Below are positions 14,727 through 46,637 of a stretch of DNA of 64,000 nucleotides, in pieces. The stretch comes from Adhaeribacter terrigena. Its GTDB lineage: Bacteria; Bacteroidota; Bacteroidia; Cytophagales; Hymenobacteraceae. The DNA lies in assembly GCF_016623615.1 (NCBI RefSeq), contig NZ_JAEHFX010000001.1, forward strand, positions 434,001 to 498,000. The letters are read 5' to 3'. The notes under the pieces are model-generated. The model was given only the letters and a program-made list of their open reading frames with translations, had not been told where the DNA came from and did no database searches. A program made the position numbers and the translations under genes. Each line of letters starts with the position of its first letter. Positions within the stretch are counted from its first letter, which is position 1.

Positions 14727-14747
14727 CTCTTTCCGGAAAGGAAAAAA

Positions 14748-16632: not shown

Positions 16633-16635
16633 AAA

Positions 16636-18764: not shown

Positions 18765-18826
18765 GGTTTAGTGAGGCAGTTTTCTACCTTAATAAATATT
18801 GGCTTATCAATCAGGAATATTTATAT

Positions 18827-19876: not shown

Positions 19877-19896
19877 AGCCGTAGTAAAAACTTGAA

Positions 19897-20622
19897 ATGA
19901 AACAGAATAGAAATGTTTTAGCAATTATACCGGCAAGGGGAGGTTCTAAAGGAATTCCTGGGAAAAATCTGCGACTATTGAATGGAAAGCCATTAATTCA
20001 GTATTCCATTGATGCAGCTCTTGAGTCTGAATTAATTAATAAGATTGTAGTTTCTACCGACGACGATAAAATTGCTGAGGCAAGTATAGGTTTAGGGGCA
20101 GAAGTTATCAAGCGCCCAGAATCCCTGGCCGGCGACAAAGCTTTAGTAATAGATGCAATCAGGTATACTATTAAGGAGAGTGAATTGCAGGGCTTTGTAC
20201 CCGATATTATTGTTCTTCTTGAATGTACTTCACCGATCAAAAGTGTTGAAGAAATCGATCTTGCTATCCGGAAATTGATTAACAATGAAGCGGACTCGGT
20301 AGCTACTTTTAAGGAAACAGCCGTATCTCCTAACCGGCTTTGGCGCATTGAAGATGGCAAAGTTGCTCCCTTTATTGAAAGTGCTTCACCCTTCATGCCA
20401 AGACAGGCTCAACCAAAAGGCTATGAATTAACCGGGCAGGTCTATGCTTTTACAACCTATATCTTGAACCAGAACCCGGAGGCCATTTCAATCCTTCTTG
20501 GCAGAGTGTTGCCTATTATTTCGAAAAGTAAGGCTGTAGATATCGATGAAGAGTTAGATCTTTTAATTGCAGAACAAGTTTTAAAATATATTGAGAATGA
20601 AAAGATTACAGGAGCTTTTTAA
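19897..20622 (+). CDS. legF: CMP-legionaminic acid synthetase (NeuA family)
   Basis: Activates the nine-carbon acid with CTP. The 241 residues open with the motif AIIPARGGSKGIPGKNLR, followed by VVSTDDDKIAEAS and LLECTSPIKS and the ELTGQVYAF segment. Pathway context gives legionaminic acid as the likely substrate. The 3' end overlaps the next gene by 26 bp, an unusually long overlap that suggests tight translational coupling. Confidence 0.9.
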   Translation: MKQNRNVLAIIPARGGSKGIPGKNLRLLNGKPLIQYSIDAALESELINKIVVSTDDDKIAEASIGLGAEVIKRPESLAGDKALVIDAIRYTIKESELQGFVPDIIVLLECTSPIKSVEEIDLAIRKLINNEADSVATFKETAVSPNRLWRIEDGKVAPFIESASPFMPRQAQPKGYELTGQVYAFTTYILNQNPEAISILLGRVLPIISKSKAVDIDEELDLLIAEQVLKYIENEKITGAF

Positions 20623-23133: not shown

Positions 23134-24564
23134 ATGTTAAAAAAAATTTTTTTTCATTCTGCACTTTATGCACTTCCCTCAATAAGCTTGCAGATAGTAT
23201 CATTATTGATGCTGCCATTTATTACTCCTCATCTCTCCGCTTCAGACTATGGTATTTATGGAGTTATATTAGCTTACATATCTTTTATTGGCCCTCTACG
23301 GGATTTGGGGTTCAATATTTCATTTGTTAATTCGTATTTTAAGCATCCAAAGAGGTGGCCACTTATCTGGCGGGCGTTATATGGTCATTTAATATTATGG
23401 AGTATTTTGTTTTCCCTGATTTACATTACTTTAATATTAATAGCTGTTCCTAAAAGTGAGTTTCAAAATATTTATGAAATTTTAGTTTTAACCTTATTAC
23501 CCGGAGTCGTTTTTGATACTGCTAACAATATAGCAAATTATTATTTTAGATTTAGTGAAAGACCAATTATCATCGCAACTGTTGGAATATTTTCAGGAGT
23601 TATAGGGATGATTGTAATGTACTACTGTATTGTGGATCTGAAAATGGGTTACCTTGGATGGTTTTATAGCACATTTGCAACTTCATTAACATTGTTTTTA
23701 ATTTACTTATATCCAGTATTTATAAAAAATAAATTATTTCCTATTGTTAAATACCGTAAAAACTTTATTAAAAAGTATCTAAGGGTATCCCTGCCTATGA
23801 TACCTCATAATTACTCTTCTTATCTCTTAAACTCCTCTGATAGGGTAGTGATGGATTGGTATAAAATAGATTTAAAACAAGTAGGATTATTTAATATTGC
23901 ATACAGATTTGGCGGTGCTTTTGAAATGATTGGTGAGGCAGCTGGAATGGCAATTGGTCCCCAGTATGTTAAGCTGTATATTAGTAAGAAGAAAAGTGAT
24001 TTACAGCTTGCAAGACAGCTTACATTTATTTTAATGGCGCTTTTTCTAACTGCTGGGTTTAATGGGGCAATTTGGCTGAAAGAAGTTTTCCAGATATTAA
24101 TTAAGAATAAAGACTTGGCTTCCGCATACGGTATTGGTACTATAATTCTTATGGGGTATTGTTATAGGCCAATGTATTGGGCCGCAATCAATAAATTAAG
24201 CACTTTTGAAAAAACCGATGTCATTTGGAGAATTTCTTTTGGGGCAGGCATCATTAATGTTTTGTTGAACCTGATTTTTTTAGGTAGCTATGGTATTATG
24301 GCTGCGGCGATTACTACGTTTATTTCCTTAATGATTATAGGATTTGCTGGCTTTACATTGAAAGAATACCGAGAGATGGATAATTTACCGCATTATCCTA
24401 TTGTTTGGCTTCTGGCAATTATATTTGCTACTTTTCTTAGTTATTATGTTAAAGATATTGCAATTTGGCAGAAGGCTATAATTTCTTGTGCCTCATTGAT
24501 TTTTATTTTTTATTACATAAGGAAAATTTACTTTGAGTTCCACTTAGATTCAAATAATGGATAG
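23134..24564 (+). CDS. wzx: Polysaccharide flippase (Wzx-type, MOP superfamily)
   Basis: An integral membrane protein of 476 residues with about 12-14 hydrophobic segments through the whole length, beginning with FFHSALYALPSISLQIVSLL and including the loop SAYGIGTIILMGYCYRPMYW. Pattern and context fit a Wzx-type exporter of lipid-linked oligosaccharide repeat units across the inner membrane. Base composition turns clearly AT-rich here. It overlaps the next gene by 8 bp. Confidence 0.85.
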   Translation: MLKKIFFHSALYALPSISLQIVSLLMLPFITPHLSASDYGIYGVILAYISFIGPLRDLGFNISFVNSYFKHPKRWPLIWRALYGHLILWSILFSLIYITLILIAVPKSEFQNIYEILVLTLLPGVVFDTANNIANYYFRFSERPIIIATVGIFSGVIGMIVMYYCIVDLKMGYLGWFYSTFATSLTLFLIYLYPVFIKNKLFPIVKYRKNFIKKYLRVSLPMIPHNYSSYLLNSSDRVVMDWYKIDLKQVGLFNIAYRFGGAFEMIGEAAGMAIGPQYVKLYISKKKSDLQLARQLTFILMALFLTAGFNGAIWLKEVFQILIKNKDLASAYGIGTIILMGYCYRPMYWAAINKLSTFEKTDVIWRISFGAGIINVLLNLIFLGSYGIMAAAITTFISLMIIGFAGFTLKEYREMDNLPHYPIVWLLAIIFATFLSYYVKDIAIWQKAIISCASLIFIFYYIRKIYFEFHLDSNNG

Positions 24565-28409: not shown

Positions 28410-29015
28410 ATGATTACTATAATCGATTATGGCCTCGGAAATCTTGGTTCTGTAGCCAATATGATGAAAAAGGTCAATGTGGATGCAATAATAACCAGTA
28501 ACCTTGCTGAAATAGAGCGTGCGGAGAAAATATTGTTGCCAGGGGTTGGGGCTTTTGATGCAGCCATGGAGAAACTTACAGATACGGAGTTACGGGAAAT
28601 TCTGGATCATAAAGTACTGGAAGAACGCATACCGGTTCTAGGTATTTGTTTGGGTATGCAGCTTTTAACTAAGGGAAGTGATGAAGGTACCTTGCCGGGT
28701 TTAGGATGGGTACCAGCTTATACTCATAAGTTTCCAGATAATCTTGGAATAAAAATACCGCATATGGGCTGGAATTATGTAATCCATAATCGTGATAACC
28801 CTCTTACCGGAAATTTTGACAAGGATTTTAGATTCTACTTTGTTCATTCTTATTTTGTTAAAGTAGAGAATGAAGAAAATTCAATATTAAAAGCAACCCA
28901 TGGAATAACTTTCGATGCTGCAGTCCAAAATTCTAATGTTTTTGGCGCCCAGTTCCATCCTGAGAAAAGCCATCGGTTTGGAATGCAATTATTTAAAAAT
29001 TTCTCCTTGTTATAA
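28410..29015 (+). CDS. hisH: HisH-like glutaminase subunit for glycan amidation
   Basis: Class I glutamine amidotransferase of 201 residues. LPGVGAFDAAM, the nucleophile elbow LGICLGMQLL (Cys about 82) and AQFHPEKSHRFG (His-Glu) give a full catalytic triad. It overlaps the hisF-like gene by 1 bp. No other histidine gene is near, and the third gene is a WbpG/PseA-like amidotransferase, so it very likely makes ammonia for sugar amidation, as HisH2 does in the Pseudomonas aeruginosa B-band O-antigen locus. Confidence 0.87.
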   Translation: MITIIDYGLGNLGSVANMMKKVNVDAIITSNLAEIERAEKILLPGVGAFDAAMEKLTDTELREILDHKVLEERIPVLGICLGMQLLTKGSDEGTLPGLGWVPAYTHKFPDNLGIKIPHMGWNYVIHNRDNPLTGNFDKDFRFYFVHSYFVKVENEENSILKATHGITFDAAVQNSNVFGAQFHPEKSHRFGMQLFKNFSLL

Positions 29016-29767
29016 TGGTTATTAAAAGATTAATACCGTGCCTGCTCTACGATGGAAAGTATCTGGTTAAAACAGTAAATTTCAAGAACCCTCAGTATAT
29101 AGGCGATCCGATTAATGCAATAAAGATTTTTAACGATAAGGAAGTTGATGAGCTGGTGTTCTTAGATATATTCGCTACTAAACAAAAGCGCTCACCAGAT
29201 ATTGCTAAGATATCACAATTTACTTCTGAGTGTTTTATGCCTTTTGCTTATGGAGGTGGAATTACTACTTTTGATGATTGTAAAAAATTATTTCATGCCG
29301 GAGTAGAAAAGGTAATAGTTAATTCGCTTTTATTCACTAATCCTAACGAAGTAAAGAAAGTTGTTGATGTGTATGGCTCACAGGCAGTAGTTGCATCAAT
29401 CGACGTGAAGAAAGGGCTTTTTAAGGGGTATGGAGTCCATTCGCATGTGGGCACAAAAGTTAATAAAAGCATAGAAGAACTCATATTATTTGTTCAGAAT
29501 GAATTGAAGGTAGGCGAAATAATGCTGACTTCAGTGGATAATGAAGGAAGCTGGAAAGGATTTGACGCGAAGTTAATTCAGAATATACACTCTTTAATCA
29601 AAGTGCCACTTATCGCTTCAGGGGGAGCAGGTACAATCGAAGATATTCGGAAGGTGCTTTATGAATTAAATGCAGATGCAGCAGCTATCGGAAGCATGGC
29701 GGTGTATCAAAAAAAAGGAATGGGAGTATTAATTAACTTCCCAAAGCGAGAAAATATAATATTATAG
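29015..29767 (+). CDS. hisF: HisF-like cyclase homologue for glycan amidation
   Basis: A TIM-barrel protein of 250 residues related to HisF. RLIPCLLYDGKYLVKTVNF at the start differs from the usual histidine enzyme, which has CLDVKDGRVVKG there, and matches the surface-glycan HisF2 type. The phosphate-binding segments PFAYGGGITT and IASGGAGTIEDI are present. In the WbpG system this subunit channels ammonia from the glutaminase to the amidotransferase. The next gene starts 4 bp after its stop. Confidence 0.86.
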   Translation: MVIKRLIPCLLYDGKYLVKTVNFKNPQYIGDPINAIKIFNDKEVDELVFLDIFATKQKRSPDIAKISQFTSECFMPFAYGGGITTFDDCKKLFHAGVEKVIVNSLLFTNPNEVKKVVDVYGSQAVVASIDVKKGLFKGYGVHSHVGTKVNKSIEELILFVQNELKVGEIMLTSVDNEGSWKGFDAKLIQNIHSLIKVPLIASGGAGTIEDIRKVLYELNADAAAIGSMAVYQKKGMGVLINFPKRENIIL

Positions 29768-29771
29768 CAAA

Positions 29772-30905
29772 ATGGCTAACCAGGAATATAAAATGTGTAG
29801 TGTTTGTGTAATGGATACAACCGATCCTTCAATTGTTTTTGATGAGAACGGACAATGTAATCATTGCAAATCGTATAGCGAAAAGTTTAAAAATACCCAA
29901 TTAATTTCACCTGAAAAGAAAAAAGAACTGCTTCACAAGAATATTCAGGAAATAAAGACTCGGGGCAAAGGAAGCAAATACGATGGTATTCTGGGAGTAA
30001 GCGGTGGTGTAGATTCTACTTACGCTGCCTTGCTTGCCAAAGAGCAAGGACTAAGAATGCTGATTTTTCATGTGGACAATGGGTGGAACTCTGAACAGTC
30101 TGTAGGAAACATTGAAAATCTTGCCCAGATTACTGGCTTTGATTATGTAACAAATGTTCTTGATTGGGAGGAGTTCCGGGATATTCAATTAGCCTACTTA
30201 AAAGCGTCAGTACTTGATTTTGAGGTACCGTCAGATCATGCAATCTATGCAACTACCTATAAGTATGCTGCCAAGTATAATATAAAAACTATTATTACTG
30301 GCCTGAATGCTTCTACAGAAGGTATTTTGCCAGGCACATGGCATTACAGCGAAAAGAATACAGATTCTGTAAATATCAAAGCTATTCACAAACAATTCGG
30401 GAAATTACCGCTTAAGAGCTTTCCTTTATTGAGCTATGAAGACTTCTTTTATTATACCAAAGTTAAAGGAATAAAATCTTTTGATATTCTAAACTATGTT
30501 GAATATAATAAGGAAGAAGTTAAAAAGCGGATAATGAAAGAACTAGGCTGGCGAGACTATGGCGGAAAACATTACGAATCTATAATTACGCGTTTCTATC
30601 AGGGATATATATTGCCACAAAAATTTGGAATTGATAAAAGAAAGGCACATTTGTCAACTTTGATAGCCGCTGGCCAAATTACAAGAGAAGAAGCGCTTAA
30701 AGAATTAGAGAAACCACCCTTAGATCCTGAAATTCTGAAACATGATCTTGAGTATGTTCCCAAAAAACTAAACATAAGTCAAGAGGAATTTCAGCAGCTG
30801 ATGAAACTGCCTAATAAAAGTCATTATGAATACCCTACCGACCAGTATAAACGTGGCAACTTAGGACGGATTAAAAATAAGATCAGCTCACTATTTAAAG
30901 CCTGA
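29772..30905 (+). CDS. wbpG: N-acetyl sugar amidotransferase, WbpG/PseA family
   Basis: A 377-residue PP-loop ATPase. The N-terminal zinc-type motif CSVCVMDTTDPSI and CNHC (four Cys about 9-38) precedes the PP-loop GVSGGVDSTYAALLA (about 75). The family uses ATP and ammonia to turn an acetamido group into an acetamidino group: PseA on pseudaminic acid and WbpG on the UDP-2,3-diacetamido-mannuronate unit. Both kinds of substrate could exist here (legionaminic acid and the WbpB/D/E product). Which one is used is not decided by sequence; the hisH-hisF partnership resembles the uronate system more. Confidence 0.88.
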   Translation: MANQEYKMCSVCVMDTTDPSIVFDENGQCNHCKSYSEKFKNTQLISPEKKKELLHKNIQEIKTRGKGSKYDGILGVSGGVDSTYAALLAKEQGLRMLIFHVDNGWNSEQSVGNIENLAQITGFDYVTNVLDWEEFRDIQLAYLKASVLDFEVPSDHAIYATTYKYAAKYNIKTIITGLNASTEGILPGTWHYSEKNTDSVNIKAIHKQFGKLPLKSFPLLSYEDFFYYTKVKGIKSFDILNYVEYNKEEVKKRIMKELGWRDYGGKHYESIITRFYQGYILPQKFGIDKRKAHLSTLIAAGQITREEALKELEKPPLDPEILKHDLEYVPKKLNISQEEFQQLMKLPNKSHYEYPTDQYKRGNLGRIKNKISSLFKA

Positions 30906-33569: not shown

Positions 33570-33671
33570 TAGAAAGAGGAGTAAAAGAGATTAGTATTTA
33601 CTAGATAATACATGGTATGCTTAATTGCCTGATTGAAAGGTTTTAAAGGTGCCAGGTTTAACGTTATCCTG

Positions 33672-35576
33672 ATGTGCGGAATTGCAGGTTTTATAGATTT
33701 TAATAATAAAAGTAGTGAGCAAACCCTTGGACAGATGGCGCAATGCGTTTCGCATCGCGGACCGGATGGGCAAGGTGTCTTCTTCAGACAAACTGGATCG
33801 GCACAGATTGGATTAGGTCATAGAAGACTATCCATCATAGATTTGAGCACTTCTGCCAACCAGCCAATGTCTTTCGGACGGTTGCATTTAGTTTTTAACG
33901 GTGAAATATATAACTACAATGAAATACGGGAGCAACTGATCGCAAAAGGCCATCAGTTCCAGACCCATTCCGATACGGAAGTGATTTTACATGCCTGGCA
34001 GGAATGGGGGGAAGCTGCTATTCAGCACTGGCGGGGTATGTTTGCCATTACGCTATTCGACGAAGAAGCGAAAGAAATAATTTGCATTAGGGATAGGGCT
34101 GGAGTAAAGCCATTTCATTATTACTGGAAAAATGGTTTATTCCTTTTTGGCTCTGAGCTAAAATCGATTATATCTTACCCAGGTTTCTCAAGAAAAGTAA
34201 GCAAACCTGCCTTGAAAACCTACCTCCAATATGGCTATGTTTCTCATCCTTATACAATCTTAGAGGGTGTTTCCAAACTTTCACCTGGGCATTTGCTCAG
34301 GCTTAATCTGAAAACAAGGGAGATCAAAATTAAGCAGTATTGGAACGTGTATGATTATTACAATAAGCCAAAGTTAAAAATTGGGTTAGAGGAAGCAACT
34401 GCCGAAACAGAACGGATTTTATCTGAATCCTTCCAATTAAGAATGGTGGCAGATGTTCCGGTTGGTGTATTTCTGAGTGGCGGTTATGATAGCTCATGCG
34501 TAACAGCGTTGCTTCAGAAAAATAATGCTGAAAAAATAAAGACGTTTACCATTGGATCTACAGATGGTAAGCTGAATGAAGCGCCATATGCGAAAGAAAT
34601 TGCTGCCTTTTTAGAAACAGACCATACCGAATATTACTGTTCGCCACAGGAAGCATTATCAATTATCCCGGAACTGCCGCATTTTTATGACGAGCCTTTT
34701 GCGGATAGCAGCGCAATTCCTACAATTTTGGTGAGCCGGCTGGCTAAGAAAAAAGTTACTGTGGCTTTATCTGCCGATGGAGGGGATGAAATATTTGCGG
34801 GTTATAACCGGTACGATTACATTACCCGATATACGCAAAAGATTAATTCAATACCCACTCCCATCCGAAAAGCCGCTGCTGCCACCATGGAACTTTTTAA
34901 TGCTGAACAGATACCGTTTTTAAAAAAGAATAAGATGGCCAGTAAGTATGGAAAATTAAAGAATATTCTCGCAGACCCATCTCCCCTTGAACTCCTTAAT
35001 AACCTGAGCCAGGTCTTTACTGATAAAGAATCTGATAAGATATTAAACGGTATGGCAAATGGATTAAAAACTGCTCATACCAGCACGGAGTTGCTTAGCG
35101 GCTATAATGATCCGCTGTCGTTCATGATGGCCATTGATTACCAAACCTACTTGGTAGATGATATTCTGCAGAAAGTGGATCGAGCAACTATGTCGGTGAG
35201 TCTGGAGGGCAGAGAGCCATTTCTGGATCAGAAGATTATAGAATGGGCTGCACAACTTCCCAATGAGCTTAAGTACTACAATGGACAGAAAAAGTACATT
35301 CTAAAGGAGATCGTGCATAAGCATCTTCCGAAGGAAATCATGGAAAGACCAAAAATGGGTTTCGGCATCCCATTAGCTTCCTGGCTTCGGAAGGAATTAA
35401 GAGAACTGGTAAATAATTACCTAAGTGAAAGTAAATTAAGCGAACACGGGCTTTTTAATATTGCCGTTGTAAAACAGATCGTATTCGACTTTTATAATGG
35501 AATGAACGAGAATCATTTAAAGATCTGGCATTTGCTTATGTTCCAGATGTGGTATGAAAAATGGATGGAAAAGTAA
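33672..35576 (+). CDS. Asparagine-synthetase-like amidotransferase, copy 3
   Basis: AsnB-family protein of 634 residues. The frame is open from 33633 but the start is put at ATG 33672, which makes the nucleophile Cys residue 2 (MCGIAGFIDF). SHRGPDGQGVF, GLGHRRLSIIDLS, FNGEIYNYNEIRE, the PP-loop LSGGYDSSCVTALL (about 275) and SADGGDEIFAGYN are intact. It is closer in motifs to the WbpS/AsnB group of glycan loci than to a truncated remnant. With two other copies in the same locus, amidation of different uronic acids or a shared ammonia role is plausible. Confidence 0.86.
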   Translation: MCGIAGFIDFNNKSSEQTLGQMAQCVSHRGPDGQGVFFRQTGSAQIGLGHRRLSIIDLSTSANQPMSFGRLHLVFNGEIYNYNEIREQLIAKGHQFQTHSDTEVILHAWQEWGEAAIQHWRGMFAITLFDEEAKEIICIRDRAGVKPFHYYWKNGLFLFGSELKSIISYPGFSRKVSKPALKTYLQYGYVSHPYTILEGVSKLSPGHLLRLNLKTREIKIKQYWNVYDYYNKPKLKIGLEEATAETERILSESFQLRMVADVPVGVFLSGGYDSSCVTALLQKNNAEKIKTFTIGSTDGKLNEAPYAKEIAAFLETDHTEYYCSPQEALSIIPELPHFYDEPFADSSAIPTILVSRLAKKKVTVALSADGGDEIFAGYNRYDYITRYTQKINSIPTPIRKAAAATMELFNAEQIPFLKKNKMASKYGKLKNILADPSPLELLNNLSQVFTDKESDKILNGMANGLKTAHTSTELLSGYNDPLSFMMAIDYQTYLVDDILQKVDRATMSVSLEGREPFLDQKIIEWAAQLPNELKYYNGQKKYILKEIVHKHLPKEIMERPKMGFGIPLASWLRKELRELVNNYLSESKLSEHGLFNIAVVKQIVFDFYNGMNENHLKIWHLLMFQMWYEKWMEK

Positions 35577-35634: not shown

Positions 35635-36528
35635 ATGAACATAGCTGTAATTGGGGCTAATGGATACCTTGGGCAACACTTGGTATATTACCTTCTTAAG
35701 GAAAAACAGCAGAAACCGGATTGCTATGATATTCAGCCGGATTTCGCAGGTAAAGATACTGTAGCTTACCAGCAACTTAATATTTGCGATAAAGAACAGA
35801 TAGGTAACTGTTTTGCAGCCTACGATTATATATATTTTTTCTCAGGACTTACTGGTACTGATGTCTCAATTGATAGATATAGAAGTTTTATAGAAGTTAA
35901 TGAGCTTGGGCTACTGAATGTGCTCGATTCTTTAAAAGACCTTAATACTAAGCCAAAATTGATTTTTCCTTCTACCAGACTGGTTTATAAGGGCCAAGAA
36001 AACACGCCATTATCAGAAGATGCCGAAAAAGAGTTTCGTACGATTTATTCTTCGTCTAAATTTAACGGCGAGAAGTATCTCGAGATGTTCAGGAATCTTT
36101 ACGCCCAGCCCTATACCGTTTTCCGGATCTGCGTGCCTTATGGCAACGTAGTTGGGGGGCAACTTTCTTACGGAACGGTAAGCTTTTTTCTGAATAAAGC
36201 TACGAATGGTGAAGCAATTACTTTGTTCGGTAATGGGAATTTGAAAAGAACCTTTACGCACGTAATGGATCTTTGTCGGCAAATTGTAGAAGTTTCTGCC
36301 AAGCCTGAGAGTAATGGCAATTGCTTTAACACTGCGGGAGAAACCTATTCGTTGAAGGAGGTTGCAACAATGATCGGAGAAAAATTTTTGGTTCCGGTTC
36401 AATTTTCCGAATGGCCCAAAAAAGCTTGGAAGCTGGAATCCGGCGACACCATTTTTGAATCTTCAAAACTGGAGCAACTGTTACCGGAGGCCCTTAAATT
36501 TTCTATAAAAGAATGGATAAACGCTTAA
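35635..36528 (+). CDS. Extended SDR, NDP-sugar epimerase/4-ketoreductase
   Basis: A 297-residue NAD(P)-dependent SDR with IGANGYLGQHLVYYLLK, PSTRLVYKGQENTPLSED and the catalytic YSSSKFNGE (YxxxK). It overlaps the EvaA-like dehydratase gene by 16 bp, which ties the two in one pathway. In deoxysugar routes an enzyme of this type reduces the 4-keto group after 2-deoxygenation. Epimerisation is the alternative. Confidence 0.78.
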   Translation: MNIAVIGANGYLGQHLVYYLLKEKQQKPDCYDIQPDFAGKDTVAYQQLNICDKEQIGNCFAAYDYIYFFSGLTGTDVSIDRYRSFIEVNELGLLNVLDSLKDLNTKPKLIFPSTRLVYKGQENTPLSEDAEKEFRTIYSSSKFNGEKYLEMFRNLYAQPYTVFRICVPYGNVVGGQLSYGTVSFFLNKATNGEAITLFGNGNLKRTFTHVMDLCRQIVEVSAKPESNGNCFNTAGETYSLKEVATMIGEKFLVPVQFSEWPKKAWKLESGDTIFESSKLEQLLPEALKFSIKEWINA

Positions 36529-37970
36529 TAAATTATAATACAAAAGGAAGAGATCAAAACACAGAACTTGCATTTCTAAAATCTGCTTTGACTTTTCAGA
36601 ATCCATTTAATACTACTGAACAGGTACTGGAATGGGTACAGGAAAGAAACCGGCAGGTTCATGTCAATATCGAACGCATCCCGTTCGATAAAATGCGGAA
36701 TTGGTCTCTGGATGAAAAAAAGGAAAAGCTGCTGCATAGTTCCGGTAGCTTTTTTTCTATTGAGGGGATCAATGTAAAAACAAACTGGGGACTGGTTCCA
36801 GATTGGGATCAGCCGATTATCAATCAACCTGAGATCGGTTTTCTGGGCATTATTACCAAAGAGGTCAGTGGTATTCTATATTTTCTGCTACAGGCTAAAA
36901 TAGAGCCTGGTAACGTAAATAATGTACAGCTCTCCCCAACCTTGCAGGCTACCAAGAGCAATTATACCAAAGTTCACAAGGGCAAGGCACCTGCTTACCT
37001 AGAGTATTTTACAAACCGGACCCGAAGCGTGGTCTTATTAGATCAGCTGCAATCCGAACAGGGCGCCCGGTTCCTTAAAAAAAGGAACCGGAATATTATT
37101 ATTAAGATAAATGAGGAAATAGAAATACTGGATGATTTCTGCTGGCTTACCTTGGGGCAGATAAAAGACCTGATGCGATTTGATAATGTGGTAAATATGG
37201 ATACCAGGACCGTTGTTTCCGGTATCTCCTTCGGCAACCACTCAGATGAAACTGTTAATTTTTTTAATCTTATCAATGATGGCGTTTCTGGAGTGGGGGC
37301 TCAATTCTTAGCTTCAGATCTGAACAGCGAAGTTTCACTTTATTCATTCGATGAAATCATACATTGGTTTACAGATCTGAAAGTTAAATATGATCTAAAT
37401 ATCAAATCGATTCCGCTAAATGCAGTAAGAGACTGGCTGATCGAAGATAATTGTATCCGGCATGTTGATAATAAATTCTTTAGTGTGATTGGGGTTCACG
37501 TTGAAATTTCCAGCCGGGAAGTTACGAATTGGGATCAACCATTGGTTGCGCCGGTACAGGAAGGTATATGTGCTTTTATTGTAAAGGAGATAGATGGTAT
37601 TTTGCATTTTTTGGTGCAGGCGAAGTTGGAAAGCGGAAATTTTGATATTCTGGAAATGGCTCCGACCTTGCAGTGCCTGACAGGAAGCTACCATAACGAA
37701 AATAGTCTGCAAACACTTCCGTATCTGGATTATGTTCTAAATGCATCTTCAGAAGAAATAATTTTCGATACCCTACAATCGGAAGAAGGGGGCAGATTTT
37801 ACCGGGAACAAAACCGCAATATGGTATTACTTGTAGGAAAGAATTTTTCTCAGGAAGTGCCGGAAAACTATATCTGGATGACCTTAAACCAGCTAAAGAT
37901 CTTTATCAAATTCAATAACTACTTGAACATTCAGGCCAGAAGCCTGATCTCAGCAATCTCTTATAATTAA
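36513..37970 (+). CDS. NDP-hexose 2,3-dehydratase, EvaA type
   Basis: The 485-residue protein consists of two homologous halves (about 10-240 and 255-485). Each has FFSIEGINV/FFSVIGVHV, a WDQP motif, GILYFLLQAK/GILHFLVQAK, PTLQ, and LQSEQGARF/LQSEEGGRF. This duplication and these motifs are those of EvaA/TylX3/OleV, which removes water from dTDP-4-keto-6-deoxyglucose so that C2 becomes deoxygenated. Such enzymes are best known from antibiotic deoxysugars of actinobacteria. Its coupling to a SDR upstream and a Gfo/Idh reductase 6 bp downstream gives a complete 2-deoxysugar module. Confidence 0.85.
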   Translation: MDKRLINYNTKGRDQNTELAFLKSALTFQNPFNTTEQVLEWVQERNRQVHVNIERIPFDKMRNWSLDEKKEKLLHSSGSFFSIEGINVKTNWGLVPDWDQPIINQPEIGFLGIITKEVSGILYFLLQAKIEPGNVNNVQLSPTLQATKSNYTKVHKGKAPAYLEYFTNRTRSVVLLDQLQSEQGARFLKKRNRNIIIKINEEIEILDDFCWLTLGQIKDLMRFDNVVNMDTRTVVSGISFGNHSDETVNFFNLINDGVSGVGAQFLASDLNSEVSLYSFDEIIHWFTDLKVKYDLNIKSIPLNAVRDWLIEDNCIRHVDNKFFSVIGVHVEISSREVTNWDQPLVAPVQEGICAFIVKEIDGILHFLVQAKLESGNFDILEMAPTLQCLTGSYHNENSLQTLPYLDYVLNASSEEIIFDTLQSEEGGRFYREQNRNMVLLVGKNFSQEVPENYIWMTLNQLKIFIKFNNYLNIQARSLISAISYN

Positions 37971-37976
37971 TTAGCT

Positions 37977-38942
37977 ATGAATTGGGGCATATTAGGCTGC
38001 GCAGGCATTGCACAGAAAGCGGTGATACCTGCCATCTTATCTATCAATGAAAACAAGCTGGTTGCTGTAAGCAGCCGGAATCAGGAATCTGCGGATAACT
38101 TTGCCAAAAAATTTGGTTGTATTGGGATTGAAGGATATGAAGAGCTGTTGAAACGGGATGATTTAGATGCGGTTTATATTCCGTTGCCCAACGGGCTCCA
38201 TTTTGAGTGGATCATGAAAGCATTGGAGCATAATAAACATGTACTGGTAGAGAAAGCTGCATTTATTTCACTTTCCGAAGCGCAGGAAGCCGTGGACCTT
38301 GCCAGAAAGAAAGGCCTAGGGATTGTTGAGAATTTTCAATTTCAGCACCATTCCCAGAATACCTTTGTGAAAAAGATGCTAGTGAAAAACGAGATCGGCG
38401 AGATCCGGTGCTTTAGAAGCTCTTTTGGCTTTCCGCCTTTCGATCCGGAAACCAATATACGATATAAACCGGAATTAGGAGGTGGAGCCTTACTGGATAG
38501 CGGCGCTTATGTGCTGAAAGCGAGTAGTTTTTTCTTTGGTCATGATTTCGAAGTGAAAGCGGCGCACCTGGATTATCACGAAGAATATGGGGTAGATTGG
38601 TTTGGTGGAGCCTTTTTGATTAATAAAGCCAATGGGATCTTCGCTGAAGTAGCATTCGGATTTGACAATTACTACCAGTGTAATTATGAGATTTGGGGAA
38701 GCACTGGTAAGATTACAGCAACCCGGGCTTTTACAGCAAAAGCAGATTTTGCACCAACCATAATCCTCGAAAAAAACGGGGTAAGCACGGAAATTGTTTT
38801 AGAGACCGACGATCATTTCCGGAACATGCTGCAGTATTTTAACCAGACTGTGAAAGAGGAGAACTTTGAACCTGAACTGCAATATATTCTTACGCAGGCT
38901 AGGTTAATTGAGCAGGTGCGGCAATTGGGAGGCAGGAATTAA
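37977..38942 (+). CDS. Gfo/Idh/MocA reductase, probable sugar 3-ketoreductase
   Basis: A 321-residue oxidoreductase: ILGCAGIAQKAVIPAIL (Rossmann), YIPLPNGLHFEWIMKALE, VEKAAFISLSEAQEA (EKx motif with Ala for Pro) and GGGALLDSGAYVL. Directly downstream of the EvaA-like gene, it corresponds in family and place to KijD10-type enzymes, which reduce the 3-keto group of the EvaA product. The replacement of Pro after EK is a small departure from the family norm. Confidence 0.8.
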   Translation: MNWGILGCAGIAQKAVIPAILSINENKLVAVSSRNQESADNFAKKFGCIGIEGYEELLKRDDLDAVYIPLPNGLHFEWIMKALEHNKHVLVEKAAFISLSEAQEAVDLARKKGLGIVENFQFQHHSQNTFVKKMLVKNEIGEIRCFRSSFGFPPFDPETNIRYKPELGGGALLDSGAYVLKASSFFFGHDFEVKAAHLDYHEEYGVDWFGGAFLINKANGIFAEVAFGFDNYYQCNYEIWGSTGKITATRAFTAKADFAPTIILEKNGVSTEIVLETDDHFRNMLQYFNQTVKEENFEPELQYILTQARLIEQVRQLGGRN

Positions 38943-38957
38943 AATTCCTTTTACAAA

Positions 38958-40196
38958 ATGGCGGTTAAAAGGAATGTTTTGGTTCTGGTTGAGTTTTTTG
39001 GGCAAGGCGGAGCGGAAAGAGTTGGAGCTATGGTTGCTCAAATGCTTGCGGACAGCGGAAAGTATAATGTATGGCTCTATGCCATTCAGGGAGGAGACAT
39101 CACATCTACTTTAGCAGGAGTGACGTCCGGTAGTTTAAATATTCTAAATGAACCAGGATCGTTAAAAAAGGTCCGAAATTATTACCTGAAATTTGCCCGG
39201 TTAAGTAAATTAAAGAAGCAACTGAATATTGACCTCTCTATTAGCAGTCTGTGGCCGGTAGACTGGATCAATGCCTTAACCGGTTCCGATAAAAAAGTGG
39301 CCATTATCCAGATCAATATTCTGAACAATGTGCAAAATGAAAAAATGGTCAGATTTCGCAAATTAGTTTCTACCGTTTATTCCCGTTTCGATAAAATTGT
39401 ATTAGGTGGCGGCAATCTGGTGCCGGAAATGACAGATTTTTTCAAGATCAATGGTGAAAAACTGCTGGTGATCCAGAATCCGGTTGAAACCAAGCGGGTT
39501 GAAAAAAATCTGCGGGAGCCTTTACCGTTTGGCTTATCCACCACTTTTGATAAGTATCAGGTTTTGGTTGCCGCTAACCGGTTGAGTGCAATTAAAAACA
39601 CCCAAGCCCTGATTTACATTTATAAATTATTGACAGATAAAGAAAAGGTAAAAATTCTGATAATTGGAGAAGGCGAAGAAAAGGAAAGATTACAGCAACT
39701 TATTATCAATGAAGGTTTCACTTATTCTCAGGTAGAATCCGAGAGCTTTGATGAAAATTCGAATTTCTATTTTTTAAACTTCCAGAACAATATCCATAAC
39801 CTGATTGGCACGTCGAAGGTCTTTTTATTCCCTACCAAAGCCGAAGGGTTGCCACTAACGTTATTGGAGGCCATGAGCACCGGGGTGCCTGTATTAGTAA
39901 GCGACTGCCCGAACGGAGGCGTAGGGGAAATTATTAATGGAACTTACGATTTCGACTTTAGTAACCAGCGGTCTGAACCTGCAAAGTTTGATGGGGGTTA
40001 TTTAATGCCAATACCTCATACGGATAAGGCAGAGCAATTAGTTTTCTGGAAGGGCAAAATTGAGGAAATACTTGCCGCAGATAACCCAAGGCGGGAAAGT
40101 TACAGATTTTCGAATAAGGCTAGGGCAGAAAAGTTTGATGTGGAGCACGTGAAATTCACATGGGTAAGCATGATTGAAGGATTATTTACAAATTAA
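38958..40196 (+). CDS. Glycosyltransferase family 4
   Basis: A 412-residue GT4 enzyme. EFFGQGGAERVGAMVAQML opens the acceptor domain; LVAANRLSAIKNTQALIYI (about 195) and KAEGLPLTLLEAMSTGVPVL (about 295) form the donor domain, followed by SDCPNGGVGEII, a motif common in GT4 enzymes of GalNAc/Glc type. It overlaps the next transferase gene by 1 bp (TAATG). Confidence 0.87.
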   Translation: MAVKRNVLVLVEFFGQGGAERVGAMVAQMLADSGKYNVWLYAIQGGDITSTLAGVTSGSLNILNEPGSLKKVRNYYLKFARLSKLKKQLNIDLSISSLWPVDWINALTGSDKKVAIIQINILNNVQNEKMVRFRKLVSTVYSRFDKIVLGGGNLVPEMTDFFKINGEKLLVIQNPVETKRVEKNLREPLPFGLSTTFDKYQVLVAANRLSAIKNTQALIYIYKLLTDKEKVKILIIGEGEEKERLQQLIINEGFTYSQVESESFDENSNFYFLNFQNNIHNLIGTSKVFLFPTKAEGLPLTLLEAMSTGVPVLVSDCPNGGVGEIINGTYDFDFSNQRSEPAKFDGGYLMPIPHTDKAEQLVFWKGKIEEILAADNPRRESYRFSNKARAEKFDVEHVKFTWVSMIEGLFTN

Positions 40197-41407
40197 TGAC
40201 AACAGGAAATAAAAAAATACTTTATTTATCTTATGATGGTATGAGCGATCATATCGGGCAATCGCAGGTATTGCCTTATCTGATCGCTTCCAGTGAAAGA
40301 GGAATGGATATCCATATTTTGTCTTTTGAAAAAAAACAAAATGAGCAAAAGATCGCTGGGATCCAGAGTTTGCTGGAGAAGCATGCTATCAAGTGGTTCA
40401 AAATAAAATTCAATCAGGGAGGAGATCTATCTAAGGTATATGATTATATAAAATTCTTTTTTAGCGCCTTTTATGTTTGTATCAAATACCGGTACGATAT
40501 TGTGCATTGCCGGAGCTATACCGCCTCAAATATCGGTCTTCTCTTGCATTATATATTAGGTAGAAAGATAATTTTTGACAAAAGGGACTTCTGGATCGAT
40601 GCTAAAATCGAGACCGGTAGGATCAACCCCGACAGCAGCTTCAGCCATAACCTGATCAATAAATTCCTTCGGTTCTTTGAAAGAAGGCTTTTTTTGGATG
40701 CTGATCATATTATTTCACTAACCGAAAAGGCAAAACAGGTCGTGCTACAAAAGTATCCCTCCAGAAAACCAGAGGATATTACAGTAATTCCTTGTTGCGT
40801 TGATCTTAACCTATTTAATAAGAATAAATTGGATCAGGGAAAGGTTACGACCTTAAGATCGGATCTTGGACTTGATGGGGCTTTTGTGCTGGGTTATGTG
40901 GGGAGTATTGGTTCTACTTATATGATTCCTACGTTGTTTGAGTGCTTTAAAGCAATTCAAAAAGCAGTTCCGGAGGCAAAATTGTTGTTTATGGTTAATA
41001 ACGATAAGGAGGAAGTTTATAAGGCTGCCGCGGAAAGCCAGGTATCGCGGGAAAATCTGGTGGTTACTTCCGCTTCTCGCCCCGAAATGCCTTTGCATAT
41101 AGCCCTGGTCGATATGGGGATCTTTTTTATTACGCCTACTTTTGCCAAGCAGGCGACTTCCCCAACTAAGCTTTTTGAAATGCTGGCTATGAATAAACCC
41201 ATAATTACCAATGCGGGGGTTGGTGATGCTGAAAAGATTTTTAATGATCTGCAGTGTGGTTATTTATTAAATAACTTTACCGAAGAGGAATTTAAGAATG
41301 TTGCCAGGTGGGTTAAGGCTAATATGGCTGGAAAGCAGTTCGATCTGAGTTGCTATTCGTTAGAATTTGGCGCCCGGAAATATTACGAGGTGTATCAAAA
41401 AAAATAA
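40196..41407 (+). CDS. Glycosyltransferase, GT4-like
   Basis: 403 residues: YLSYDGMSDHIGQSQVLPYL at the N-terminus (a segment seen in many GT4-like surface-sugar enzymes), FDKRDFWIDAKIETG, then LGYVGSIGSTYMIPTLFECF and SPTKLFEMLAMNKPIITNAG in the donor domain. The donor-domain glutamate is in KLFEML. It is coupled by overlap to the transferase before it and followed at 2 bp by another, so three transferases are made in a row. Confidence 0.82.
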   Translation: MTTGNKKILYLSYDGMSDHIGQSQVLPYLIASSERGMDIHILSFEKKQNEQKIAGIQSLLEKHAIKWFKIKFNQGGDLSKVYDYIKFFFSAFYVCIKYRYDIVHCRSYTASNIGLLLHYILGRKIIFDKRDFWIDAKIETGRINPDSSFSHNLINKFLRFFERRLFLDADHIISLTEKAKQVVLQKYPSRKPEDITVIPCCVDLNLFNKNKLDQGKVTTLRSDLGLDGAFVLGYVGSIGSTYMIPTLFECFKAIQKAVPEAKLLFMVNNDKEEVYKAAAESQVSRENLVVTSASRPEMPLHIALVDMGIFFITPTFAKQATSPTKLFEMLAMNKPIITNAGVGDAEKIFNDLQCGYLLNNFTEEEFKNVARWVKANMAGKQFDLSCYSLEFGARKYYEVYQKK

Positions 41408-41409
41408 TA

Positions 41410-42501
41410 ATGAGAAAGATTTTATTTGTAGCACCGTATCCGGAAGGACTTGCCCCTAGCCAGCGATTAAAGTATGAACAATACTATCCGTATTTCAGGG
41501 AAGCAGGATATGAGATCACTACGAGATCCTTTATTGATGCGGAGTTCTGGCAGACCGTTTATAAGCCAGGTAATACCTTTAGGAAGATCCTTTTTACAAT
41601 TAAGGCCTACTTTAGGCGGATAAAAGACCTGTTTACCCTTGGTAAATATGATGTGGTATATGTGCACCTTTGGGTCACCCCAATTGGCCCGCCTTTATTC
41701 GAGTGGCTTTTCCGGAAGTTCTCAAAACGGCTGATCTATGATATTGATGACTTGATCTTTCTGAAACCGAAGAGCAAATCGAACCCCCTGATCAACTGGT
41801 TGAAGTCCAGTAATAAGTCCATTTACCTGATGAAAGTTGCTGATCATGTGATTACGTGTACCCCGCACCTTGATCAGTTTGTAAGACAATTCAACAACAA
41901 AACCACCGATATATCTTCTACGATAAACACCATTGCTTATCGGCCCCGAAAAGATTATTCTGTTAAAGAAAAGATCACGTTGGGGTGGAGCGGGAGCCAT
42001 AGCACTTCCAAATATGTTTATCTGTTAAATAATGTTTTTCTGAAACTGAAAGAAGAAATAGATTTCCGTTTGCTGGTTATCGGCGACCGGGAATTTAAGA
42101 TGGAAGGCATTGAAGTAATTGCTATTCCCTGGCAGGAGAGCACAGAAGTAGATGATCTTGCTAAAATAGATATCGGCCTTTACCCGTTGCCGGATGAGGA
42201 ATGGGTATTAGGGAAAAGTGGTTTGAAAGCCTTGCAATACATGGCGCTGGGTATTCCAACAATTGCAACTGCCATTGGTGCAAATTACAGAGTAATAGAA
42301 AGTGGTGTTTCCGGCTTCCTGGTAAATTCTCCGGAAGAATGGTTGCAGGCAATCCGTGATTTGGCGAAAAATGAGGCACTTAGAGTTTCTATTGGATCTA
42401 AAGCTGCTGAGCGGGTAGAGCAATTTTATTCTCTTAATGCCAATGCACCGGTTTATTTGAGAATTCTGGATAAAGTTATTTCAAATGAGGTCAATTCCTG
42501 A
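41410..42501 (+). CDS. Glycosyltransferase, GT4-like
   Basis: 363 residues with the start at ATG 41410, two bases after the stop of the previous gene; a longer frame from 41350 would overlap it and adds no conserved part. ILFVAPYPEGLAPSQRLKYE, DIDDLIFLKPKSKSNP, LGWSGSHSTSKYV and GKSGLKALQYMALGIPTIAT mark the two GT-B domains. It is the last plus-strand gene of the glycan locus. Confidence 0.82.
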   Translation: MRKILFVAPYPEGLAPSQRLKYEQYYPYFREAGYEITTRSFIDAEFWQTVYKPGNTFRKILFTIKAYFRRIKDLFTLGKYDVVYVHLWVTPIGPPLFEWLFRKFSKRLIYDIDDLIFLKPKSKSNPLINWLKSSNKSIYLMKVADHVITCTPHLDQFVRQFNNKTTDISSTINTIAYRPRKDYSVKEKITLGWSGSHSTSKYVYLLNNVFLKLKEEIDFRLLVIGDREFKMEGIEVIAIPWQESTEVDDLAKIDIGLYPLPDEEWVLGKSGLKALQYMALGIPTIATAIGANYRVIESGVSGFLVNSPEEWLQAIRDLAKNEALRVSIGSKAAERVEQFYSLNANAPVYLRILDKVISNEVNS

Positions 42502-42950: not shown

Positions 42951-43004
42951 GTTACTACCAGGAATTTAATTCATAAATTATTGAATTGAATTCCTGGTAG
43001 TAAC
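42951..43004. repeat. Long inverted repeat spanning the wzy-like stop codon
   Basis: Arms of 23 bp, 42951-42973 and 42982-43004, pair with a single mismatch (16 outer pairs are perfect, beginning GTTACTACCAGG). The loop is 8 nt (42974-42981) and contains the stop codon of the minus-strand membrane protein gene. On the minus strand the stem is followed by CGATATCATTTTT, so it can act as a terminator. Confidence 0.85.
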
Positions 43005-44396
43005 GGGTTTTGAGATTACTGCCCTATTATTAATAGTCAATAGTAGTTTAGATTTCTTAGTTTTGATTTTAGACACCACAAACTTTTCTTTATACAAAAT
43101 TCCTAGAAAAAGCAGATAGAAGGGCATAAACGGTATTTTATAACGGACCAAAGAACCAAAGTTCGCAGAAGATACGCCAACCATAAATGCAAAGGTAAAA
43201 CTGAATAACAGGCAAAACTGGATAAGGGGGGAGTTCCAGATGATAGACATTGATCTGCCGAACCCTTTTTTGAAGAGCAGGTAAAGGGTGAAATATAGAA
43301 ATAACATACTTTCTGCCGATGCAAAGAAGATGAAAGGGCTCAGATATTCCCAAGGGTAAGGCCGGAACAAGCTGATATTTATTCCCTGCGGAATAGCAAT
43401 TAAAACTCCTAAGGGAGAAGAAAAGTCGACCTCAAAACTATATGCCGAACCAGCGCTGCTTTCCTGAATATAAACAGCAGTCTGGGCAGCCGTTTCTAAA
43501 ACCTGATCCACTGAATATCTTCCCAGTAATTCATCTGCATTCTGTAAAAAAAGTGCTATTGCAGCTGCACCAAACATGAAAATAAATGGAGTACTAAACC
43601 ATTTTATAGCTGGATTCTTTATCTTATCCCGATTACTGTTTATAATATAAATAATGAAGAAAGGAATAAATGCGGCTAAAATGTATAGTTTAATGGAAGC
43701 GATCATAAGCATGGCTATCAAAATACCAATGATGTTTCTGATTAAGTTTTTAGGTTTAATAAAGATATAGTAGCTACAGATAAACAGCCACATTAAGGCT
43801 GTAAATGTAATGGTATCTTTAAATATTCCGGAATCCCAAATCAGAACAGACGGGATCAAAATAGAACTGAAAGCAGCGATCTTAATGGGTATGTTAAATT
43901 CTTTGATTATAAAAATAAAGAAATTCCAAACCCCTATAAATGCTATAACACAAAAAAATATGGCGCAAGGTAGAAAAGTGTCAAAAGTGAAAAAATTAAA
44001 AACAGCCGCTATTTTGCTTACAGTAAACGATTCATTTGCAAAAATATGGACGTTTCCGCCAAAAAGCCCAAGTTTGTTAGTTTCATTAAAAGTATTTAAT
44101 TCCTGAAAGAGGACTGGGATAATTTGGTCTGGAAACTCTAACCAATATGAAGTAAGCATTTTGCCTCCTCTAAAATAATTTATTCCATCATAAGAACCTC
44201 CATAGTAATATTGGTAAATTAATGAAATAGAAATACAACCAAATAGTTTTAAGTATAGAGCCCAATTAAAATACTTCTTCAAGGTGCTATTCTTTCCATG
44301 TTTTACTTTAAAATAGAGGTTCATTAATAAGATTGCACCAATCAGATAAAAAGGGAGGAGCAAATAGTCTTTTAGAAAAATGAATTGGTTACCCAT
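42978..44396 (-). CDS. Polytopic membrane protein, probable O-antigen polymerase (Wzy-like)
   Basis: 472 residues with about 10-11 hydrophobic segments and a large periplasmic-type loop (about 285-345, rich in acidic residues and Gln, including YSVDQVLETAAQTAVYIQ). The tail NFGSLVRYKIPFMPFYLLFL is like that of many Wzy-family polymerases. Wzy proteins share little sequence, so the call rests on topology and on being the only such protein in a locus with a Wzx-type flippase. Its last codons lie inside a 23-bp-arm inverted repeat. Confidence 0.65.
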   Translation of the reverse strand: MGNQFIFLKDYLLLPFYLIGAILLMNLYFKVKHGKNSTLKKYFNWALYLKLFGCISISLIYQYYYGGSYDGINYFRGGKMLTSYWLEFPDQIIPVLFQELNTFNETNKLGLFGGNVHIFANESFTVSKIAAVFNFFTFDTFLPCAIFFCVIAFIGVWNFFIFIIKEFNIPIKIAAFSSILIPSVLIWDSGIFKDTITFTALMWLFICSYYIFIKPKNLIRNIIGILIAMLMIASIKLYILAAFIPFFIIYIINSNRDKIKNPAIKWFSTPFIFMFGAAAIALFLQNADELLGRYSVDQVLETAAQTAVYIQESSAGSAYSFEVDFSSPLGVLIAIPQGINISLFRPYPWEYLSPFIFFASAESMLFLYFTLYLLFKKGFGRSMSIIWNSPLIQFCLLFSFTFAFMVGVSSANFGSLVRYKIPFMPFYLLFLGILYKEKFVVSKIKTKKSKLLLTINNRAVISKPVTTRNSIQ

Positions 44397-45075: not shown

Positions 45076-46182
45076 TTAGAGCTTGAAAAAAAAAATGATT
45101 GTTTTGCAAACTTTTTTCACCTGATCTTCCTGCAAGCCCGGATATATTGGTAAGCTCAAATAGGTTTTTGCTAATCCTTCTGCAATCGGGAATTCTCCTG
45201 GTTTATAACCTGATTCTCTATACGCGGCCTGTAAATGCGGTGGGAGCGGATAATGCACCATTGTTTGAATGTCTCTAAACGCCAAATTATCTTTCATTTT
45301 ATCACGGTCATTCATTTGAATTGCATACAAGTGATAAACATGTGTTGCACCTTCAGCAATTTTGGGAGTAATAATTCCTTGCATTCCATCCAACTCCTGA
45401 TTGTACAAAGCCGCAATCTTCTGCCTTTCTGCATTCCAATACGCTAAATATTTCAACTTTACATTCAGAATAGCTGCCTGCAATTCATCTAAGCGAGAGT
45501 TGAGCCCAATAACCTCATTATAATACTTCTTCTCCGAACCGTAATTCCGAAACATGCGCGCTTTACGGGCTAATTCTGCATCATCGGTTATAATGGCACC
45601 AGCATCACCTAGTGCACCTAAATTTTTGGTGGGGTAGAAACTAGTAGCGTTGATGTGACCAAAATTGCCGGTTAGTATTCCTTTAAAAGCAGCGCCCTGG
45701 CTTTGTGCATGATCTTCCACCACAAACAGGTTATGCTCTTTTGCGATTTTCATGATCGTATCCATTTCACAAGCCTGGCCATAAAGATGAACCGGTATGA
45801 TAGCTTTGGTGCGAGGTGTAATGGCTGCCTCAATTAAAGTCGGATCGATATTATAGGTATCTATTCGGGGTTCTACCGGAACGGGGGTAGCTCCAACTAA
45901 AGAAACTGCCAGCCAGGTGGCAATGTAGGTATTGGAAGGTACAATTACTTCATCGCCAGGGCCAATCTCCAGGCACATGAGGCAGATGCGCAAGGCATCC
46001 AGGCCGTTGCCAACTCCAATACAGTACCTGGTTTGGTTGAAAGCTGCATAATTGGCTTCAAATTTCTCAACTTCCGGACCCAGTATGTAGTTTTTAGAAT
46101 CGAAAACGCGAGCCATCGCTTCCAGCACTTCCTCGCGCATTTGGCGGTTCATGGGTTCGAAATCTAAAAACGGTATCTTCAT
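45076..46182 (-). CDS. fdtB: dTDP-3-amino-3,6-dideoxyhexose transaminase (FdtB/QdtB type)
   Basis: DegT/DnrJ/EryC1 aminotransferase of 368 residues: [49 protein letters not shown] and the PLP-lysine segment [17 protein letters not shown]. The gene just upstream (18 bp) is the FdtA-type 3,4-ketoisomerase, whose product dTDP-3-keto-6-deoxyhexose it aminates. Whether the product is Fuc3N or Qui3N depends on the isomerase and is not decided here. The acetyltransferase FdtC/QdtC is absent from the window. Confidence 0.87.
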
Positions 46183-46200
46183 GAGGTTAAAAAGTCAATC

Positions 46201-46602
46201 CTATTTCCACTGGTTTTGAAAATCGGAAATATCCCTGATGTAGTCAGTTTCATCGTAAAGTTCAGACGAAAGTACTAGTTGGAGCGCATTTTCGGAATAA
46301 TTCATAATGCGCCAGACATTCGGGGGAAGGTATAAAGCCTGGTCCGGGGAATGCAGTTCAAAGCTTTTTTCTTCACCCGACGGAGACGTAGTAATAACGG
46401 TTACGGAACCCTGTAAAGCTACCAGGATCTGCTGGTTCCGGTAATGCGCGTGGTTCCCTCTTATTGCCTGTGCCGGTATAGAATGGGTCCAGAAAACCCG
46501 TTTAACTTCAAAAGGAATATTTTTAAGATTCTCTGCTACGGTAATAAACCCTTTTTCAGGCGCGCCGATCTCTGGAAATTCAAATAAATATGGTTGGGTC
46601 AC
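46201..46602 (-). CDS. fdtA: dTDP-4-keto-6-deoxyglucose 3,4-ketoisomerase (FdtA/QdtA type)
   Basis: A cupin of 133 residues. I start it at GTG 46602 (MTQPYLFEFPEIG) because known FdtA proteins begin at this point and because an earlier in-frame TTG at 46632 lies inside the -7 box. Motifs are PFEVKRVFWTHSIP, the histidine pair in RGNHAHYRNQQILVALQG and PPNVWRIMNYSENALQLVL. It moves the keto group from C4 to C3 of the dTDP sugar. It is the first gene of a fdtA-fdtB(-wzy) group read against the rest of the locus. Confidence 0.87.
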   Translation of the reverse strand: MTQPYLFEFPEIGAPEKGFITVAENLKNIPFEVKRVFWTHSIPAQAIRGNHAHYRNQQILVALQGSVTVITTSPSGEEKSFELHSPDQALYLPPNVWRIMNYSENALQLVLSSELYDETDYIRDISDFQNQWK

Positions 46603-46629
46603 GAATAAAAATGGTAGGGTTTTGACTAA

Positions 46630-46637
46630 CAAAAGTA
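46630..46637 (-). promoter_or_regulatory. -7 box upstream of fdtA
   Basis: On the minus strand TACTTTTG, an exact TAnnTTTG match, 27 bp before GTG 46602. Its place argues against translation starting at 46632. Confidence 0.5.

Follow-up and report, generated by a model that had tools for sequence, protein, structure and literature searches.

We analysed a stretch of 64,000 nucleotides from the Bacteroidota species Adhaeribacter terrigena (contig NZ_JAEHFX010000001.1, positions 434,001 to 498,000), called the window below. It carries three consecutive genes for a short-chain dehydrogenase/reductase (SDR), a 485-residue homologue of the 2,3-dehydratase EvaA and a Gfo/Idh reductase (the last two genes are referred to as evaA and gfo). 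The open reading frames lie exactly where an earlier note on this DNA had placed them. Recomputed from their coordinates, SDR and evaA overlap by 16 bp and the gap between evaA and gfo is 6 bp, which fits a single operon. We consider it likely that the three genes encode the last steps in the synthesis of a deoxythymidine diphosphate (dTDP)-linked 2,6-dideoxyhexose for a Wzx-exported surface polysaccharide, the individual reactions being predicted ones.

The central protein matches PF03559 (nucleoside diphosphate (NDP)-hexose 2,3-dehydratase) twice (E 1.4e-155), in agreement with the two EvaA-like halves recognized in the earlier note. The halves are 32% identical to each other over 200 aligned positions and are the only matches to PF03559 in the genome. 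EvaA (PDB 4j7g, E 1e-103) is the only PDB match of the protein at E values up to 0.01, and a Nudix-superfamily fold is predicted from this match. In the parts of PMC8987622 available to us, EvaA is the sole well-characterised 2,3-dehydratase; its pocket A is active, with E139 and E190 likely catalytic, while pocket B is an inactive leftover. In the window protein, E139 and E190 have their counterparts in E131 and E182, and both catalytic glutamates are present.

The conservation of these residues was followed in an alignment of 30 rows, 29 of which contain the N-half (loci in other genomes are labelled L with a number). The equivalent of E139 is kept in 29/29 N-half rows and that of E190 in 26/29, the other three (L034, L071 and L077) having Asp; both are present in all 16 full-length rows of the window's group and in 6 rows added later. 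The first of the corresponding C-half glutamates, which are E373 and E424 in the window protein, is found in 17/17 rows of the window's group, in 6/8 actinobacterial rows (EvaA has Asp and L075 Gln) and in 3/4 divergent rows, and the second in 25/25 rows of the window's group and the actinobacterial set and in 2/4 divergent ones, with Asp in the others; L035 does not reach the first of them since its contig ends. The six later rows retain all four glutamates, and L096 has Asp at the fourth. Among the 16 group rows the mean pairwise identity is 62.0% for the N-half and 56.9% for the C-half; the 8 actinobacterial rows give 59.9% and 47.2%, respectively, so that the C-half varies less within the window's group than among the sampled antibiotic-type enzymes. 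This lower divergence could reflect activity, dimer structure or closer kinship. A shorter, divergent form of EvaA of 421-429 residues was also observed (L034:6745-8013 and L071:7962-9221); in both of these E190 is replaced by Asp.

The best PDB match of the reductase is KijD10 (PDB 3rbv, E 3.1e-67, residues 3-316); KijD10 and its variants score about 1e-67, and the next protein follows at 1.2e-25, some 40 orders of magnitude behind. A Lys and a Tyr of KijD10 (chain positions 120 and 204, which we take to be K102 and Y186, near the reduced carbon) are present in 16/16 aligned homologues. The KijD10-like character proposed in the earlier note is borne out.

The SDR has no close relatives of solved structure. 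The catalytic S/T and YxxxK and the dinucleotide motif of SDRs (S113-T114, Y138xxxK142 and D32) are invariant in six sequences, the window's own included. We rejected an RmlB-type 4,6-dehydratase because the active-site T-D-E reads T-R-L (S-T-R-L in 6/6 sequences vs S-T-D-E in the genome's own RmlB), and RmlD because the TIGR01214 score is 41 bits vs a cut-off of 224. Many relatives hold a C4-type aminotransferase beside evaA-gfo, and for this reason we assign the C4 step to the SDR, which is most likely a C4 reductase that finishes the dTDP-2,6-dideoxyhexose, its specificity being a prediction.

The substrate can be supplied from elsewhere in the genome, where contig C23 encodes one RmlB (477 bits against a cut-off of 365) and one RmlA (482 against 361), consistent with the dTDP-4-keto-6-deoxyglucose route assumed in the earlier note. 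In the proposed pathway RmlA and RmlB would produce this intermediate, and loss of the C2 hydroxyl through the EvaA homologue would give a 3,4-diketo sugar, to be reduced at C3 by the KijD10-like enzyme and at C4 by the SDR. Glycosyltransferases of the locus would then attach the sugar, probably of the D-series (olivose, oliose, digitoxose or boivinose), to the polysaccharide; we infer both its stereochemistry and its presence in the glycan. With RmlB upstream of the dehydratase a 2,6-dideoxyhexose is the expected product, and not merely a 2-deoxy sugar, so the earlier reading, 2-deoxy or 2,6-dideoxyhexose, is supported as far as sequence goes and can be narrowed to the latter. The same intermediate may also feed rhamnose, given that the genome holds RmlC and two RmlD-like genes, which score below the cut-off (221 and 209 vs 224 bits).

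The surrounding genes are listed in Table 1. We assign the deoxysugar to a Wzx-exported surface polysaccharide because the locus holds a Wzx-like flippase, glycosyltransferases, and nonulosonate and amidotransferase-like genes. The Pfam scan, which covered 37 window proteins up to 46.6 kb, gave no match for the polytopic membrane protein. The order asnB-SDR-evaA-gfo, three glycosyltransferases and membrane protein is kept in L069, from the same family (eight genes, 69-85% identity), and the same eight-gene block occurs in Flaviaesturariibacter (L020, 38-75% identity); the asparagine-synthase-like protein, in the same place, is 77% identical in L069 and 38% in L020.

Table 1. Features of the window; positions are counted from its first nucleotide.
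Feature	Position	Strand	Evidence
SDR, proposed C4-ketoreductase finishing the sugar	35635..36528	+	PF01370 E 2.2e-31, extended SDR
EvaA-type NDP-4-keto-6-deoxyhexose 2,3-dehydratase, 485 residues, two related halves	36513..37970	+	PF03559 twice
Gfo/Idh sugar C3-ketoreductase, KijD10-like (Gfo/Idh/MocA)	37977..38942	+	PF01408 E 3.8e-24, PDB 3rbv
Asparagine-synthase-like protein, neighbour syntenic with the evaA module	33633..35576	+	PF00733
Three glycosyltransferases, candidate deoxysugar transferases	38958..42501	+	PF00534/PF13439/PF13692
Polytopic membrane protein, possible polymerase (Wzy-like)	42978..44396	-	8 hydrophobic segments, simple scan
Wzx-like flippase, same glycan locus	23134..24564	+	PF01943 E 6.5e-13
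QdtB/QdtA-like (FdtB/FdtA-like) pair	45076..46632	-	aminotransferase (45076..46182) and ketoisomerase

Other parts of the locus point to further sugars. LegB and LegC, both above their cut-offs, stand at 13728-20622 with PglD-, NeuB-, epimerase-, nucleotidyltransferase- and cytidine monophosphate (CMP)-transferase-like genes, a set like a legionaminic-acid-type nonulosonate route. HisH-, HisF- and PP-loop amidotransferase-like genes are consecutive at 28410-30905, a row like that for amidation of N-acetyl uronic acids in WbpG systems. Asparagine-synthase-like genes occur three times, the one syntenic with the evaA module being preceded by others at 6283-8199 and 26105-27961. The FdtA/FdtB-like pair suggests a third use of dTDP-4-keto-6-deoxyglucose, for 3-amino-quinovose (Qui3N) or 3-amino-fucose (Fuc3N), and likely serves a 3-amino-3,6-dideoxyhexose.

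The EvaA family is rare and patchy, as judged from low counts in genome samples that overlap and that each include the genome of the window. PF03559 was found in 3/395 genomes of the phylum sample and in 12/390 of the order sample, six of the latter, which belong to a single genus, holding the shorter divergent form. When the class sample was searched with a profile, 10/395 matched, one match being marginal with an internal stop and one the divergent form. Of 13 loci found in a contig collection, 11 lie outside Actinomycetota, and Streptomyces and Kutzneria account for the other two. Among 72,556 plasmid records there were 85 matches, 75 of them from Streptomyces, one from Serratia and one from Hoeflea; on the Hoeflea plasmid (L077:5914-7194) a divergent 2,3-dehydratase-like gene lies between glycosyltransferases, with transposases nearby. 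Public records already name such proteins 2,3-dehydratase family, including the divergent one on this Gram-negative plasmid.

In trees, from which L035 and L036 (partial) and L067 (same contig as L024) were left out, the window's EvaA clusters mostly with Bacteroidota homologues, the group also including Kiritimatiellota and LCP-89 members. Its split from the 8 sampled actinobacterial rows has support of 100/100 with 16 rows, a tree that also held the two very long branches L077 and L078, and of 93/90 with 22 rows, without L077, L078 and L096. Adding the distant L096 lowered the support to 89/58 (22 rows) and 54/0 (23 rows), so that L096 cannot be placed. The non-actinobacterial but divergent L034, L071 and L077 fall outside the window's group. 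Nothing in the three trees points to a recent transfer from actinomycetes: of the actinobacterial rows, of which only 8 were sampled, none lay inside the group.

We compared the composition of the module in 23 relatives, namely L020-L030, G380 (L035 and L036 taken as one locus), L066, L068-L070 and L090-L096, of which L096 is the most distant (38%); L067 was dropped from the count as a copy of L024. The reductase is found in 20 of the 23, the exceptions being L023 (whose contig starts in evaA), L024 and L029. An aminotransferase of C4 type is present in ten (L022, L027, L029, L030, L036, L066, L068, L070, L090 and L095). The order is rmlB-rmlA-methyltransferase-SDR-evaA-gfo in L021, an Allomuricauda metagenome-assembled genome, and rmlB-rmlA-evaA-gfo-aminotransferase-formyltransferase in L030; in L066 rmlA and rmlB are about 3 kb away and evaA and gfo flank the aminotransferase, which in L029 stands in front of evaA. 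The rmlB frame of L021 (799-1839) is open only in two pieces, maybe through a sequencing or assembly error; this split leaves the first piece below the RmlB cut-off, although the stretch shares 73% identity with RmlB of L030.

NCBIfam alone cannot separate C3 from C4 aminotransferases, and PDB matches were used alongside. The enzymes of L066, L029 and L090 (of which only a part is available) score above the threshold of the WecE-type model for dTDP-4-amino-4,6-dideoxygalactose transaminase, and the best PDB matches of the L066 enzyme are 4-amino-4,6-dideoxygalactose transaminases (5e-91 vs 2e-39 for QdtB). DesI is the best-scoring model for those of L022, L027, L030, L036, L068 and L095, though its cut-off of 650 is not reached; the window's FdtB-like protein also scores best with a C4 model, again below cut-off. 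For L030 and L068 the best PDB match is 2po3, presumably the 4-aminotransferase CalS13, which for L030 is only six orders ahead of QdtB; the C4 class of the L070 enzyme rests on its 90% identity to that of L068. Directly after the aminotransferase, L030 and L070 encode a dTDP-4-amino-4,6-dideoxyglucose formyltransferase above cut-off, and these evaA-gfo-aminotransferase-formyltransferase sets (L030:6029-12192 and L070:4121-8425) predict a 4-formamido-2,4,6-trideoxyhexose.

Several observations weigh against the proposed pathway. Neither RmlA nor RmlB above cut-off was found within the window and RmlC is encoded on contig C19, so that an L-sugar is possible. A structure search with a predicted SDR model (mean predicted local distance difference test score 82.7) returned mostly uridine diphosphate (UDP)-sugar 4-epimerases as the closest structures, at 18-24% identity, with the 4-keto-6-deoxy reductase 2pk3 at rank 33. 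Among the relatives, an SDR orthologue is present in 8/23 (L020, L021, L024, L027, L069, L090, L091 and L096); two of these, L027 and L090, also hold the aminotransferase, which is there at least 6 kb from gfo or evaA. Seven have neither gene in the stretches at hand (L023, L025, L026, L028, L092, L093 and L094), the first four being short or cut contigs, and 5 of these 7 hold a methyltransferase instead. In the seven loci L090-L096, obtained after the hypothesis had been formed, the reductase is present in 7/7, which speaks for the pathway, the SDR in 3, the aminotransferase in 2, both of the latter in 1 and neither in 3. The mutual exclusion of SDR and aminotransferase among the relatives is loose, not strict.

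In the most serious alternative the pathway holds, but the SDR is an epimerase or an enzyme for another sugar, and an enzyme encoded elsewhere completes C4. The epimerase-like structures, the absence of an SDR orthologue from the available stretch of 15/23 relatives, and the position of the SDR gene on the opposite strand with one gene between in L024, and two or three genes from gfo in L090 and L091, would all be explained. However, the SDR gene and evaA are immediate neighbours in the window, L020, L021 and L069, in L027 and L096 the SDR gene comes next after gfo, and eight relatives without the SDR have a C4-type aminotransferase; we regard this alternative as rather unlikely. More improbable is that the FdtB-like aminotransferase acts on C3 of the diketo sugar to give a 3-amino-2,3,6-trideoxyhexose of vancosamine or daunosamine type. 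Although the window also encodes this enzyme and QdtB, which we take to be a 3-aminotransferase, leads its PDB matches, it is paired with its own QdtA-like ketoisomerase, as is usual for Qui3N or Fuc3N, and C3 amination would leave the C3 reductase without a role. What is more, QdtB/QdtA-like genes were not found in L020 and L069, whose sequence extends less than 2 kb past the shared block.

The destination and the substrate of the sugar can be questioned as well. The 2,3-dehydratases named in the available parts of PMC8987622 (TylX3, OleV, UrdS and SpnO among them) are all from antibiotic pathways, which would suit a secreted secondary metabolite. Yet no polyketide or peptide synthase was detected among the 37 window proteins up to 46.6 kb that were scanned with Pfam, the locus holds the flippase, several glycosyltransferases and the nonulosonate genes, and the window's EvaA lies in a group separate from the actinobacterial homologues sampled, making this a very improbable destination. 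We give least credence to a homologue that has diverged from the family function and acts, for example, on a UDP sugar: the protein is only 43-44% identical to the four actinobacterial rows compared, but the catalytic glutamates are kept throughout its group, the partner is of KijD10 type, and rmlA and rmlB accompany the module in L021, L030 and L066. The dTDP-2,6-dideoxyhexose pathway ending in a surface polysaccharide thus appears to us the likely one.

Methylation may be a third finishing branch. A S-adenosylmethionine (SAM) methyltransferase stands beside gfo or evaA in L026, L028 and L092, homologues of the L092 gene occur in L093 and L094, and L091, and by homology L090, also hold one. 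In L091-L094 and partly in L090, all from one Bacteroidota family, we observed a run of evaA, gfo, methyltransferase, glycosyltransferase 2 and tetratricopeptide repeat (TPR)/SpoIIE genes; L026 is similar, with TPR/SpoIIE proteins also beside evaA.

In the open-access literature, where sugar names with commas could not be searched, we found no publication that describes an EvaA-type pathway for a surface polysaccharide of Gram-negative bacteria. One candidate, PMC11676643, was discarded, as the match to 'EvaA' in the part seen was a digital object identifier in its reference list. In the accessible sections of PMC3210612, on marine Gram-negative antigens, 2,6-dideoxy sugars appear only as 2-amino derivatives. 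A 2026 preprint (PMC12874011, in the portion available) includes olivose, with no source named there, among the 18 bacterial monosaccharides of a modelling tool, so this 2,6-dideoxy sugar is not without precedent in bacterial glycans. It is against these sources that the rarity of such sugars on Gram-negative surfaces, as stated in the earlier note, was checked. The enzymes are of a known kind; as far as our searches go, the window's group and its use for a glycan have not been described.

We see about an even chance that these loci represent a distinct branch of the EvaA family, unconnected with antibiotics, that makes 2-deoxysugars for Gram-negative glycans, with a constant evaA-gfo pair, exchangeable finishers (a C4-reductase; a C4-aminotransferase, sometimes with N-formylation; perhaps a methyltransferase) and a C-half that is maybe a working second site. 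If so, the surface sugars of Bacteroidota would include 2-deoxy residues as a variable class that has been overlooked. Linkages of 2-deoxy sugars are acid-labile and easily lost in routine glycan analysis, and standard hydrolysis would then miss part of the surface chemistry. Dehydratases from outside the actinomycetes would also serve glycodiversification and help to find out if the second pocket of EvaA is ever active.

Compared with known systems, the window protein shares with EvaA of Amycolatopsis orientalis, TylX3, OleV, UrdS and SpnO the two PF03559 halves, the N-half glutamates and the supply of dTDP-4-keto-6-deoxyglucose. Unlike EvaA, it is encoded in a Gram-negative glycan locus and groups apart from the 8 actinobacterial rows. 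Its C-half reads Q-x-K-x-E-x-G-N, a motif in which EvaA replaces Glu by Asp and lacks the G-N; a second motif of the C-half, SEEGGRF, is common to both. KijD10, from Actinomadura kijaniata, has the same Lys and Tyr as the window reductase but reads Glu-Lys-Pro where 13 aligned non-actinobacterial homologues (L028 and L090-L096 were not aligned) have Glu-Lys-Ser/Ala. On the Pseudonocardia plasmid pLS2-1 (L073) evaA adjoins gfo as in the window, with rfbA and rfbB within about 4 kb; there the pair lies beside polyketide synthases, in the window beside a flippase and glycan transferases. The 3,6-dideoxyhexoses of O-antigens (paratose, abequose and colitose, as treated in the available parts of PMC8987622) likewise arise when a 4-keto-6-deoxy sugar destined for a surface glycan is dehydrated a second time. 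In those sugars, however, the C3 hydroxyl is lost through a B6 enzyme related to aminotransferases, whereas in the window it would be the C2 hydroxyl, removed by an enzyme of predicted Nudix fold.

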